Source: a bacterium
GTDB taxonomy: Bacteria; JAJRZV01
Assembly (NCBI GenBank): GCA_024275095.1
Contig: JAJRZV010000102.1
Location: 1 to 46,502, forward strand
Reading direction: 5' to 3'
DNA: 46,502 bases
Shown here: positions 11,188 through 15,873 of the stretch, one piece after another
Layout of the letters: every line of letters begins with the position of its first letter
Position numbering within the stretch: position 1 is the first letter of the stretch
Position numbers and translations under genes: made by a program
The notes under the pieces: generated by a model
Told to the model about the DNA's origin: nothing
Databases searched by the model: none
The model's input: only the letters and a program-made list of their open reading frames with translations

Positions 11188-11856
11188 TTACTGGCTCCAC
11201 CCATGCTTTCCTATAAGTTTCACAAACACGCACCCCCCAAGGTTCTGTATAAACACCTGGCCTTCCCGTTTCTCAACAAGCAGAAGGTCCTGTCCCATAC
11301 GATCACCTACCGGAATAACCAGCCTGCCCCCATCGGCAAGCTGGTTAACGAGCGGTTGAGGGATTTCAGGAGCACCCGCTGTCACAATAATTCCGTCAAA
11401 TGGAGCCGCCTCTGGCCAGCCCAGCGTGCCGTCTCCTACTCTTATGTAAAACCTGGAATAACCCAGAGCCTCCAGCTGTTTCTTCGCCTTTTCCGCAAGC
11501 TCCTGGACACGTTCAATGGAATACACCTCAGCACCTGCCTCCAGCAACACGGCGGTCTGATACCCCGACCCCGTACCAATTTCCAGCACCTTCATTCCAG
11601 TGCGTGGCGCCAGAGCTTCTGTCATGAACGCAACCATGTATGGCTGGGATATGGTCTGTCCGTGACCTATTGGGAGCGGGTGGTCATCGTAAGCCTGTGA
11701 ACGCACGGACTCCGGCACAAACAAGTGGCGGGGAACATTTCTCATTGCTTTGAGCACAACAGGATTTGTTACACCACGATTTCTTATCTGAGTCTCCACC
11801 ATTTGATGGCGCAATCGTGCGTAATACTTCTCTTTATCAGAATTTTTCGAGCTCAT
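11188..11856 (-). CDS. pcm: Protein-L-isoaspartate O-methyltransferase
   Basis: This SAM-dependent enzyme of about 222 residues repairs L-isoaspartyl sites in aged proteins. The family hallmarks are present: GHGQTISQPYMVAFMTEAL, motif I VLEIGTGSGYQTAVLLEAG, IERVQELAEKA and GDGTLGWPEAAPFDGIIVTAGAPEIP. The ATG at 11856 is preferred because GAGGA lies about nine bases upstream; the TTG five codons earlier has no such site. The coding sequence overlaps the end of surE by 20 bases, the usual surE-pcm coupling. The protein is cytoplasmic and linked to stress and stationary-phase survival. Confidence 0.93.
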   Translation of the reverse strand: MSSKNSDKEKYYARLRHQMVETQIRNRGVTNPVVLKAMRNVPRHLFVPESVRSQAYDDHPLPIGHGQTISQPYMVAFMTEALAPRTGMKVLEIGTGSGYQTAVLLEAGAEVYSIERVQELAEKAKKQLEALGYSRFYIRVGDGTLGWPEAAPFDGIIVTAGAPEIPQPLVNQLADGGRLVIPVGDRMGQDLLLVEKREGQVFIQNLGGCVFVKLIGKHGWSQ

Positions 11857-12601
11857 TTTTCCAGTCCTCAAGTATCCGGAGTGATTCGCGGTGGGTAAGA
11901 TCCAGGTGGAGTGGAGTTACTGAAATATATCTCCTCAAAACCATTACGATATCTGAGTTTTCTATGTACTCAAACCCGAGTTCATCTCCCCCTATCCAGT
12001 AATATTTTCTGCCACGTGGGTCAACTTTTTCCACAATGGCTTCACCATACTTACGCCGCCCCTGGACTGTAAACGCTACACCTTTTATTTCTGAGACGCT
12101 ACTTACGGGAGGGACATTCACATTGAGAAATACTCCCTCAGATGGCATACCATGTCTGAAGACAATTTCAGCAAGGCGCCTGGCGAACTGCCCGGCAGGG
12201 GTATAATTCAGGTTTTCCCTTCCCGCAAGGGATATGGAAAAAGCAGGAATGCCAAGAAGTGTTGCTTCCATTGCCGCGGAGACAGTACCACTGTACGTCA
12301 CATCATCTCCAAGGTTGCCTCCCCTGTTGATACCAGAAGCAACAAGATCGGGACGAAATTTCAGGAGTCCATTCACCGCGATATTCACACAATCAGCAGG
12401 CGTTCCATCCACGGCAAATGTTCTTTCATCCACTTCTGTCACGCGTAAAGGCCGATGTAAAGTTATTGCGTGAGACGAGGCGGACTGCTCCCTGTCAGGA
12501 GCCACGATCCAGACTTCGCCCAGCTCTTCGAGCGATTCAGCGAGGCAGCGTAATCCTTCTGCATAAATACCATCGTCATTGGTTACCAGTATCCGCCTCA
12601 T
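11837..12601 (-). CDS. surE: 5'/3'-nucleotidase SurE
   Basis: This metal-dependent nucleoside monophosphatase removes phosphate from 5'- and 3'-nucleotides. The N-terminal MRRILVTNDDGIYAEGL holds the ND-D metal ligands. Further motifs are PDREQSASSHAITLHRPLR, DGTPADCVN and SGINRGGNLGDDVTYSGTVSAAMEA. I place the start at the ATG at 12601 (MRRILV), with AGGAG eleven bases upstream. A longer frame exists to 12643, but SurE proteins begin at the ILVTNDDG segment. The tRNA-Pro gene lies 51 bases upstream on the same strand, so surE may be read from the tRNA promoter. Confidence 0.94.
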   Translation of the reverse strand: MRRILVTNDDGIYAEGLRCLAESLEELGEVWIVAPDREQSASSHAITLHRPLRVTEVDERTFAVDGTPADCVNIAVNGLLKFRPDLVASGINRGGNLGDDVTYSGTVSAAMEATLLGIPAFSISLAGRENLNYTPAGQFARRLAEIVFRHGMPSEGVFLNVNVPPVSSVSEIKGVAFTVQGRRKYGEAIVEKVDPRGRKYYWIGGDELGFEYIENSDIVMVLRRYISVTPLHLDLTHRESLRILEDWKNELEKF

Positions 12602-12652
12602 CGGATGAACAGCTCCTGAAGTTTTCCGTGAAAATTCATGCATATAAAAAAA

Positions 12653-12728
12653 TGGTCGGGGTGAGCCGACTTGAACGGCCGACCTCTCGCACCCTAAGCG
12701 AGTGCGCTAACCCCTGCGCCACACCCCG
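12653..12728 (-). tRNA. tRNA-Pro(AGG)
   Basis: The minus strand folds into a full cloverleaf: acceptor CGGGGTG/CACCCCG, D stem GCGC/GCGC, anticodon stem CTCGC/GCGAG with loop TTAGGGT, five-base variable region, T stem GGCCG/CGGCT with loop TTCAAGT, then A73 and an encoded CCA. The anticodon (12693-12695) is AGG. C1-G72, A73, G35 and G36 are the bacterial tRNA-Pro identity elements, so the Pro assignment is firm. Adenine at position 34 is unusual, because bacteria normally have it only in tRNA-Arg(ACG). Confidence 0.93.
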
Positions 12729-12739
12729 ACGCGGAAATT

Positions 12740-12768
12740 ATTATAACAAACCCATCGCTTTTGGTTAA
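12740..12768 (-). promoter_or_regulatory. Promoter of tRNA-Pro
   Basis: On the minus strand a perfect TATAAT (12740-12745) lies 17 bases after TTAACC (12763-12768, four of six to the -35 consensus). It is about 12 bases before the mature tRNA 5' end. Transcription could continue into surE. Confidence 0.6.
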
Positions 12769-12820: not shown

Positions 12821-13195
12821 TTAATGCGAAATCTGAGCTTCAAGAGAGTCTATATTTTTTTCCACAACCCTCACCAGCTGCTCCAGCTTCTCCCGCACTT
12901 TTTTAAGGCGACCAGCAAGCGTTTGTCGCGAGTGTTTTTCACTTCCACCCCATTTCTCTTCCAGTTTCTTTCTGGCACCTTTAATTGTGAAATTTTCCTC
13001 ATAAAGGAGCTTTTTAATTTCCATTACAAGTTCCAGATCCTTCTTTTTGTAAAGTCGCCGGTTGGCCCGATCCTTTATCGGACGAAGCATGGGAAATTCA
13101 GTCTCCCAGTATCTGAGCACGTGAGCCTTTATTCCCGTAATGCGGGAGACCTCGCTGATGTTGTAGTACAGTTTATCTTTGGGAAACGCTTTCAT
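12821..13195 (-). CDS. MerR-family transcriptional regulator of the pheT-ihfA locus
   Basis: This DNA-binding protein of about 124 residues has the N-terminal MerR winged helix (YYNISEVSRITGIKAHVLRYWETEFPMLRPIKDRANRRLYKKKDLELVMEIKKLL) and a C-terminal coiled-coil-like tail (LAGRLKKVREKLEQLVRVVEKNIDSLEAQI). No Cys-based effector site is seen. This small type regularly sits after ihfA in Deltaproteobacteria. The ATG at 13195 (MKAFPKDKL) overlaps the ihfA 3' end by 23 bases. A further upstream start at 13234 would lengthen the overlap and adds unconserved residues. The target is unknown. Confidence 0.85.
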   Translation of the reverse strand: MKAFPKDKLYYNISEVSRITGIKAHVLRYWETEFPMLRPIKDRANRRLYKKKDLELVMEIKKLLYEENFTIKGARKKLEEKWGGSEKHSRQTLAGRLKKVREKLEQLVRVVEKNIDSLEAQISH

Positions 13196-13463
13196 TGAGT
13201 CGTTTTTTAAGAAGCGGACTTGTCCTGAAAACAAGGACGCGACGCTCAGAAATGGTCATGCTTTCATTTGTTTGAGGATTGCGTCCTCTGCGAGGTTTCT
13301 TGTGGCGCACTTCGAAAATGCCGAAACCTGATAGTTTCAATCTTCCTTCTTTTACAAGCACTTCTTTCATCGTTTCGAACACCAGATCCACAAGTTCCTG
13401 GCACTCTTTTTTGGAGAATCCGATTTTTTCATTAAGAATTTTAACCAGTTCTGCCTTCGTCAT
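13173..13463 (-). CDS. ihfA: Integration host factor alpha subunit
   Basis: This 96-residue DNA-bending protein of the HU/IHF family shows MTKAELVKIL, LSGFGIFEVRHKKPRRGRNPQT (the DNA-intercalating beta arm with its Pro) and ISERRVLVFRTSPLLKKRLN. Position directly after pheT is the classical place of ihfA/himA in proteobacteria and favours IHF-alpha over HU. GGAGGACGGG precedes the ATG. The gene overlaps the following merR gene. Confidence 0.92.
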   Translation of the reverse strand: MTKAELVKILNEKIGFSKKECQELVDLVFETMKEVLVKEGRLKLSGFGIFEVRHKKPRRGRNPQTNESMTISERRVLVFRTSPLLKKRLNESVSQR

Positions 13464-13473
13464 CCCGTCCTCC

Positions 13474-15873
13474 TTATCTCAAAGAGGCATTAAATTCCTT
13501 TTGAGCCATTTTAATAATAGACTCAAAAATACTCGAAATTTCTTCGGAACTCAAGGTTTTTTTCAGGCTTCTGAACCAAATCTGAAAGGTCACGCTCATG
13601 CGTCCTTGAGGGATGGCACCACCCCTGTATATGTCATAAAGCCACACTTTCCATATATAAGGCGAAACCTCATATATCCGCCTGATCATTGCTTCCACGT
13701 TTTCGCTCTCGTCAATTACAAAAGAAAGATCGCGGATCGCAGGTGGAAAACGAGGCACCTCTCTTGCTGCGTAGTGGCGTGCCTCTACAAGAGTAAGTAC
13801 CTGTTCCATATCTATTTCAGCCACAACTACTCCAGACTCAAGCTCAAGCGAACTTGCAAATTGAGGATGTAGCTCTCCAAATACAGCCACAGGCCTGCCT
13901 TCCTCTGTTTCCATCCGTGCACTTTTGGCTGGATGAAAAAGATTCCCGTGCTGAAGCCTGGTATTTGTTCGCAGGGTTGAGGGAATAACACCAACGCTCA
14001 TGAGCACGCTCTCCACAACACCCTTCACAGTAAAGAAATCAACCTCATGCACCTCATCTGTCCAGGAAATGCCAGGATACCGACCCGAGAGAATCAATCC
14101 CAGGTGTTCACGTTCTTGGAATACTGAACCATCACTGTAAAAAACGCGACCAATCTCGAATAATGCAACATTGCGTCGCAAGTTACGATGATTTTTTGAA
14201 AGGGCTCTTACAAGACCCGAGATAAGATTCATTCTCAAACATGGCTCCTCTTTAGAAAGCGGATTTTCCAGAGTCACTGGAAATGAAATGCCATCTTCAT
14301 TGAAAAAGTAAAAATTTTCTCCTGGATTTTTGGAAGTAAAAATGTACGTCATGGTTTCAAAAAAACCGAGACTCGCAAAATGCTGTTTAACACGCCTGAA
14401 GCAGGTAATACGTGAAGGAAGGCGAAAAGCACCAATTTGAACAGGGCTGAGTGCTTCTGGAACAGCATCGTATCCTCTAATTCGCAAAAGTTCCTCAACC
14501 ACATCCGAGTCCATCTGGACGTCATGCCTGTATGACGGAGGTGAGACCTTAATCGCTTCCTCCTGGACTTCCACCTGGAAATTTAATCGTTTGAGAATAT
14601 CTTCCATCTCTTCGAGGGAGAATTTCACACCCGTTGAGCGCTGGACAAAATCTCTTGAAACAAGAATCGTCGGACGCTCAATGGGGTTTGGGAAATTATC
14701 CAATGGACGAGCGGCTTTTCCTCCACAAATTCTTTCCATCAGATGCGCGGCGCGCCTCAACCCTTTCTCCACTCCAGCAAGATCCACCTTTCTCTCGAAC
14801 CGAAAAGACGATTCAGAAGATATACGATATCGACGGGACGTACGCCTGACAGACGAGGGCTCGAACCACGCGCTCTCGAGAAAAATCTGGACGGTCCCCT
14901 CATCCACAGCCGAGGCCTCACCACCCATCACACCTGCAAGTGCTACCGGCCCTTTTTCGTCAGCAATAACGAGATCTTCCTCGGTCAGCTCCAGATGTGA
15001 ACCGTCAAGCAAAAGGAGTTTCTCACCGGGTCTGGCAAAGCGCACATGAATATCACCTTCCAGCCTTGTCAGATCAAATGCGTGCAAAGGTTGACCCAGT
15101 TCCATGAGCACATAGTTGGTAATATCCACTGTATTGAGAATAGGCCTGAGCCCCATCTTTATTAATCGAGCCTTCATCCACGCAGGTGACTCTCCGCACT
15201 TAATATCAGTAATAATCAGGCCCATGTATCTGCGACAGTAAAACCCGTTATCAATATGTACATCCTTGTGAATTTCTACAGGATGTTCTGTAAAGGAAAT
15301 ATCGGGTTCTTTAAAATCGCGTCCTATAACAGCCGCTATCTCCCGGGCCATGCCCAGATGACTGAGCACATCACCACGGTTGGGAGTTACTGCAATCTCG
15401 AAAAGCGTGTCTTTAAACTCAAGTGCTTCCACCATATCAGACCCGTCAGGAGTACCGTCATTAAGCCTCATAACCCCGGGAGACTTTTCCTCAAGCCCCA
15501 GTTCTTCAGGAGAACACAACATGCCCTCTGATAAAACATCGCGGATCTTGCGGGCCTCTATTGCTGCTCCACCTTTGATGCGTGCACCAGGAGGTGCAAA
15601 CGGGCAGACATCGCCCTCTGATACGGAAAGGTCACCACAAATAATTTCGTATTCTTTTGGTCCAGCCTTTACTTTGAGCACGTGTAGCTTATCCGCCTGC
15701 GGATGGGGCGCTACTGAAAGCACCTTTGCCGCGATTACGCCTTCTATACCATCTCCCAGCACTTCATAACCCTCTACCTCAAAGCCTGCCATGGTCAAAG
15801 CGCGTGCCAGTTCTTCATCCTCCATGTCAGAAATATCCACGAAATCACATATCCAGCGGCGGCTGATCTTCAT
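13474..15873 (-). CDS. pheT: Phenylalanyl-tRNA synthetase beta subunit
   Basis: The 799-residue subunit has the normal length. The N-terminal tRNA-binding (EMAP/B1) domain is seen at VIAAKVLSVAPHPQADKLHVLKVKAG, followed by B3/B4 editing and B5 domains (TPNRGDVLSHLGMAREIA). At the C terminus is the ferredoxin-fold anticodon-binding domain (REVPRFPPAIRDLSFVIDESENVEAM). With PheS it forms the alpha2-beta2 enzyme that charges tRNA-Phe. The start overlaps the pheS stop by four bases (ATGA), so the two are translationally coupled. No defect was seen. Confidence 0.97.
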   Translation of the reverse strand: MKISRRWICDFVDISDMEDEELARALTMAGFEVEGYEVLGDGIEGVIAAKVLSVAPHPQADKLHVLKVKAGPKEYEIICGDLSVSEGDVCPFAPPGARIKGGAAIEARKIRDVLSEGMLCSPEELGLEEKSPGVMRLNDGTPDGSDMVEALEFKDTLFEIAVTPNRGDVLSHLGMAREIAAVIGRDFKEPDISFTEHPVEIHKDVHIDNGFYCRRYMGLIITDIKCGESPAWMKARLIKMGLRPILNTVDITNYVLMELGQPLHAFDLTRLEGDIHVRFARPGEKLLLLDGSHLELTEEDLVIADEKGPVALAGVMGGEASAVDEGTVQIFLESAWFEPSSVRRTSRRYRISSESSFRFERKVDLAGVEKGLRRAAHLMERICGGKAARPLDNFPNPIERPTILVSRDFVQRSTGVKFSLEEMEDILKRLNFQVEVQEEAIKVSPPSYRHDVQMDSDVVEELLRIRGYDAVPEALSPVQIGAFRLPSRITCFRRVKQHFASLGFFETMTYIFTSKNPGENFYFFNEDGISFPVTLENPLSKEEPCLRMNLISGLVRALSKNHRNLRRNVALFEIGRVFYSDGSVFQEREHLGLILSGRYPGISWTDEVHEVDFFTVKGVVESVLMSVGVIPSTLRTNTRLQHGNLFHPAKSARMETEEGRPVAVFGELHPQFASSLELESGVVVAEIDMEQVLTLVEARHYAAREVPRFPPAIRDLSFVIDESENVEAMIRRIYEVSPYIWKVWLYDIYRGGAIPQGRMSVTFQIWFRSLKKTLSSEEISSIFESIIKMAQKEFNASLR

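Follow-up and report, generated by a model that had tools for sequence, protein, structure and literature searches.

A close described counterpart of the gene reported here is the G34-to-A mutant of tRNA-Pro(GGG) in Salmonella (Chen et al. 2002; PMC3617221, PMC3711424, PMC11066159), in which, as these sources describe it, this isoacceptor has undergone an identical base change. According to PMC3711424 and PMC11066159, the mutant tRNA reads CCC nearly as the wild type does, and does so without deamination of A34. That mutant is a laboratory product, in a cell which by the same accounts has a cmo5U34 tRNA-Pro(UGG), whereas the A34 tRNA-Pro that we describe is natural, apparently fixed, and found in a genome that lacks a cmoB match over the cut-off. 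In E. coli, an AGG tRNA with an otherwise favourable loop had no detectable inosine and gave 12.9% on CCU, 10.3% on CCC and about 1% on CCA and CCG; changes at 32, 37 or 38 blocked the editing of other tRNAs by E. coli TadA (PMC11066159). Another close system is tRNA-Leu(AAG/IAG) of Streptococcus and its relatives, which is likewise a second A34 tRNA besides tRNA-Arg(ACG) and likewise replaces a G34 tRNA. It differs in that it serves another amino acid and is shown to be edited to inosine by an adapted TadA. By analogy, tRNA-Pro(AGG) would work like the Salmonella mutant if its A34 is unmodified, and like the Streptococcus tRNA-Leu(IAG) if it is edited.

The gene lies at positions 12653-12728 on the minus strand of the window, by which we mean the whole stretch of 46,502 nucleotides that was analysed. 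It is 76 nt long with the CCA encoded, and ARAGORN calls it tRNA-Pro(agg) over exactly these coordinates. Against Rfam RF00005, whose gathering score is 29, Infernal gives it 56.5 bits and marks none of its pairs as non-standard, and the single strand folds into a full regular cloverleaf at -34.5 kcal/mol. The wobble base A34 is window position 12695 (a T on the plus strand), in a seven-base loop, UUAGGGU at 32-38, that has U33 before A34. The bases C1, G72, A73, G35, G36 and G37 are all kept, as they are in every one of nine aligned tRNA-Pro genes, taken from this genome and several more. The original prediction had described a perfect cloverleaf with an AGG anticodon, an encoded CCA and the tRNA-Pro identity elements, and the two programs and the nine-gene alignment agree with it; with these intact features the gene looks functional. 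By its sequence, then, the gene is a member of tRNA-Pro and also of the small group of A34 tRNAs that bacteria have besides those for arginine. One further feature argues for selection on the molecule. At the acceptor pair 6-67 this gene has U-A where the other eight of the nine aligned genes have C-G, and since both sides of the pair have changed, this is a compensated double change of the kind expected for a gene under selection. As for the CCA, it is encoded in some tRNA genes of this genome and absent from others, and of the proline genes AGG is the sole one of the three to have it.

Is the GGG isoacceptor missing from this genome, as the original prediction asked? The source genome is 2.45 Mb in 136 contigs and 97% complete, and a DNA search with the AGG gene detects exactly three tRNA-Pro genes in it: AGG, TGG and CGG. 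A scan with the GGG anticodon arm plus T arm, two mismatches allowed, found no GGG tRNA-Pro in the assembly; it returned AGG, TGG and CGG, each with a single mismatch, as well as three tRNAs for other amino acids with two mismatches. A separate tRNA family search of the genome missed the AGG gene itself and is not used here as proof of absence. ARAGORN does report a tRNA-Pro(ggg) at 14846-14930 on the minus strand, inside pheT, but this is a false positive with no Rfam match even at E = 10; a tRNA listing made by ARAGORN only would wrongly put GGG in this genome. No A34 tRNA was seen in the genome besides tRNA-Arg(ACG) and the AGG gene. Two side observations may be recorded: tRNA-Asn(GTT), tRNA-Ile(GAT) and tRNA-Ala(TGC) are absent from the genome's tRNA list, either through assembly gaps or because the search missed them, and a tmRNA with the tag AEPVALAA lies at L206:8819-9165 (G000 C86). 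For this 97% complete assembly, the best explanation is that no tRNA other than tRNA-Pro(AGG) is dedicated to CCU and CCC.

The neighbourhood of the gene tells where it probably came from. The order at the locus is pheT-ihfA-merR-tRNA-Pro-surE-pcm, all on the minus strand and all conserved context: pheT (13474-15873); a 96-amino-acid ihfA/HU-family gene (13173-13463, from its translation); a MerR-family regulator gene as upstream neighbour (12821-13234, Pfam PF13411, its start codon uncertain); surE as downstream neighbour (11837-12643, PF01975, the true start probably inside the ORF); and pcm (11188-11871, PF01135). Two genomes of our comparison set, which is a broad bacterial sample entirely outside the phylum of the source genome, have a tRNA-Pro(GGG) in exactly this place, with pheT, ihfA and merR upstream of it and surE downstream; we call these genomes G019 (locus L048) and G043 (locus L049). 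MerR is 47% and 42% identical to the same-place gene in G019 and G043 respectively, the ihfA/HU-family gene has same-place homologues in both loci, SurE is 56-59% identical to the SurE beside the GGG genes, and Pcm is 54% identical to that of G019. An arrival of the AGG gene on a mobile element is unsupported, its neighbours being conserved housekeeping genes common to the GGG-bearing genomes. Nothing similar to the region was found by megablast in E. coli genomes.

The GGG tRNAs (of the proL type) of these two loci share with the AGG gene not only the neighbours but also the proline identity bases. They differ from it in having G34 rather than A34 and C6-G67 rather than U6-A67, and in the D-loop; in the anticodon arm the G019 gene is identical to it except at position 34. 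Descent from a GGG gene predicts a shared neighbourhood and no separate GGG gene, and we find both, the latter in an assembly that is 97% complete. Because the same locus carries GGG in G019 and G043, the G019 arm differs only at 34, and GGG is otherwise absent, we strongly infer that the AGG gene is the ancestral GGG gene after a G34-to-A change, and that it replaced GGG. What can be held against replacement is that the gaps in the assembly could hide a GGG gene.

The gene has a putative sigma-70-like promoter at 12740-12768 on the minus strand, a consensus match of the form TTAACC-17 nt-TATAAT with TG before the -10 element, which matches at 10 of 12 positions and ends 11 nt upstream of the tRNA. 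It is the one promoter match in the region, which is the shuffle expectation (mean 1.1), so that what speaks for it is its position. The original prediction had likewise given the gene a TATAAT promoter of its own. Directly after the CCA there is a run of seven T (12646-12652, minus strand), which may end the transcript with the 3' part of the tRNA serving as the stem; the count of such terminator-like sites equals that in shuffles.

An A34 tRNA in bacteria was said in the original prediction to be normally restricted to tRNA-Arg(ACG). This overstates the rarity: the exact A34 tRNA-Pro pattern matches at least 118 stretches in other genomes (genome_contigs), and ARAGORN confirmed tRNA-Pro(agg) in 15 of the 15 loci checked. 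Among the matches listed, all titles are Clostridia, other Bacillota (one of them Lactobacillaceae) or Bacteroidota. In the broad sample the same pattern found nothing in 388 other bacterial genomes, its sensitivity being less than complete (relaxed to any base at 34, it detects a tRNA-Pro in 111 of 144 genomes). The decoding arrangement with tRNA-Pro(AGG) is rare, not unique. No GGG match was obtained from 35 AGG-bearing genomes or from the genome studied here, where an any-base pattern with a slightly looser variable loop gives AGG, CGG and TGG, and GGG is present in at least 30 genomes of the broad sample among the matches listed. This absence is suggestive of replacement, with the reservation that some lineages may lack GGG for older reasons.

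These counts also bear on the suspicion that the anticodon is an artefact of assembly or base calling, with a true G34 at this position or with the GGG gene missing from the assembly. The genome is a draft in 136 contigs, a few per cent of it are missing, and the locus does carry GGG in G019 and G043, all of which favours the suspicion. But the arm, the stems and the identity bases are otherwise perfect, and the same anticodon recurs in all those other stretches, with none of the 35 genomes tested matching GGG, so that an A34 tRNA-Pro without GGG is a biologically normal state. In our opinion an artefact is extremely improbable.

The tRNA-Pro(AGG) genes of Clostridia, Bacteroidota and one Lactobacillaceae are likewise natural bacterial A34 tRNA-Pro genes that go without a GGG match, in 35 of 35 genomes tested, but they are not simply the same gene elsewhere. 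Their loop is UUAGGGA, with A38, and several, position 34 aside, are identical or nearly identical over 42 bases to the CGG gene that the same genome carries, whereas the present gene has U38 and descends, as argued above, from GGG. In three of them (G396, G400 and G417, of Clostridia and Lactobacillaceae, all with the UUAGGGA loop) the AGG gene equals the genome's own CGG gene over the 42-base stretch except for position 34 or one further base. Judged by sequence, these three apparently arose separately, when a gene was duplicated and C34 changed to A. Because the CGG-like AGG genes have A38 and the present gene has U38, as do the GGG genes at its locus, there has probably been more than one way for AGG to arise.

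What is the load on this tRNA? In 330 ORFs (124,915 codons, of which 5786 are proline) CCU makes up 33% of proline codons, CCC 29%, CCA 17% and CCG 21%. CCU and CCC together come to 62% in this genome sample and to 72% in a ribosomal-protein operon, where the counts are 44 CCU, 39 CCC, 15 CCA and 18 CCG. We see no codon adaptation towards CCU: at 0.535, the U/(U+C) value of proline lies between the extremes of the other boxes (0.35-0.65) and is similar to the GGG genomes G043 (0.54) and G019 (0.43). The tRNA very probably reads both CCU and CCC, and for CCC we infer this strongly, because reading of CCU only would leave CCC, a codon common even in highly expressed genes, to near-cognate decoding. 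The original prediction also allowed that the whole CCN box might be read. That is not needed, as TGG and CGG tRNAs are present and the published AGG tRNA gave only about 1% on CCA and CCG (PMC11066159).

One may ask instead whether the AGG gene is minor or dying, with the TGG tRNA, its U34 unmodified or otherwise modified, superwobbling over all four codons so that loss of GGG is tolerated. There is precedent, since in Salmonella the GGG tRNA gene is non-essential and the TGG tRNA, by virtue of its cmo5U34, covers the entire proline box (PMC3617221), and reduced genomes use superwobbling (PMC3711424). In the present genome, however, CmoB has no match over the cut-off, and for this reason cmo5U34 is probably missing from its TGG tRNA; the CGG tRNA is retained. 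The AGG gene itself is intact, with the compensated 6-67 pair, a well-positioned promoter candidate and an encoded CCA, and the preference for CCU and CCC in ribosomal-protein genes would be odd if they were read by a near-cognate tRNA alone. We therefore consider superwobbling with a decaying AGG gene very unlikely, while noting, as a point against our main explanation, that with some U34 modification besides cmo5U the TGG tRNA could read CCC.

The remaining question concerns A34 itself, for which the original prediction offered a TadA of wider specificity or an unmodified base. This is the right pair of options; the loop and the literature favour the second. TadA targets follow YUACGAA in E. 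coli and the relaxed YUAMGRA in S. pyogenes (PMC11472039). The loop UUAGGGU fits neither, departing from them at 35 and 38, and because it fails the published consensus we do not class the present tRNA as an inosine tRNA on its sequence.

Deamination of A34 by TadA would nevertheless give a tRNA-Pro(IGG) that reads CCU, CCC and, weakly, CCA, as in eukaryotes, and the heavy use of CCU and CCC would be explained by I34 equally well. The genome does have a TadA of 158 amino acids (L193:1474-1950, G000 C73), and that of S. pyogenes has widened to tRNA-Leu(AAG) (PMC11472039). This TadA aligns well to E. coli TadA and is otherwise ordinary, but has D-E-R-Y-G where the E. coli protein has D-A-K-T-G, so that Arg replaces a Lys at about position 110. 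In the S. aureus complex it is this Lys that makes contact with the 32-38 region (PMC3711424), and the replacement could go with an altered specificity. In the alignment the same position is Gln in three other AGG-bearing genomes. Most AGG genomes keep the Lys, though, and one non-AGG genome has Glu; the alignment yields no clear TadA signature common to AGG genomes. Against editing there are also G35 and U38, both outside the two published consensus sequences, and the E. coli experiments cited at the outset, in which TadA did not edit an AGG tRNA although its loop was otherwise optimal, and in which changes at 32, 37 or 38 stopped the editing of other tRNAs (PMC11066159). Taken with the general resemblance of this TadA to that of E. 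coli, this makes the inosine reading, in our opinion, a possible but rather doubtful one.

We prefer an unmodified A34 because UUAGGGU misses the TadA consensus and because in published experiments A34 tRNA-Pro, free of inosine, is about as good a reader of CCC as of CCU; the presence of a TadA, its Lys-to-Arg change and the widened TadA of other bacteria are what stand against this. The whole explanation would run as follows. An ordinary tRNA-Pro(GGG) in the pheT-ihfA-merR-tRNA-surE setting underwent a G34-to-A change and became an elongator tRNA-Pro(AGG), predicted to be functional, which replaced GGG. At CCU its A34 would pair with U; at CCC it would rely on an A34-C wobble that the proline codon, having two strong G-C pairs, can tolerate. 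A34 would for the most part stay unmodified, as the loop sequence and the published experiments suggest. The TGG tRNA would read CCA and may help on other codons, and the CGG tRNA would read CCG. We hold this explanation, taken as a whole, to be the probable one, with moderate confidence.

If A34 is indeed unmodified, a natural unmodified A34 would sit in the main CCU and CCC reader of a bacterium with an ordinary genome size. Should the less likely case hold, in which TadA has independently widened to a UUAGGGU proline tRNA, the tRNA would be a tRNA-Pro(IGG) in a bacterium, and to Arg(ACG) and Leu(AAG) a third specificity of editing would be added; the unmodified case is also worth reporting. 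The practical stake of the finding is modest. The Clostridia and Bacteroidota supply a natural comparison, between an AGG tRNA derived from GGG (U38) and AGG tRNAs apparently derived from CGG (A38), and that comparison bears on which AGG tRNAs are edited and on whether A34 alone suffices. Evolution appears to have made here, in a genome of normal size and in its single GGG gene, the substitution that was made in Salmonella in the laboratory, and CCC is still a common codon.
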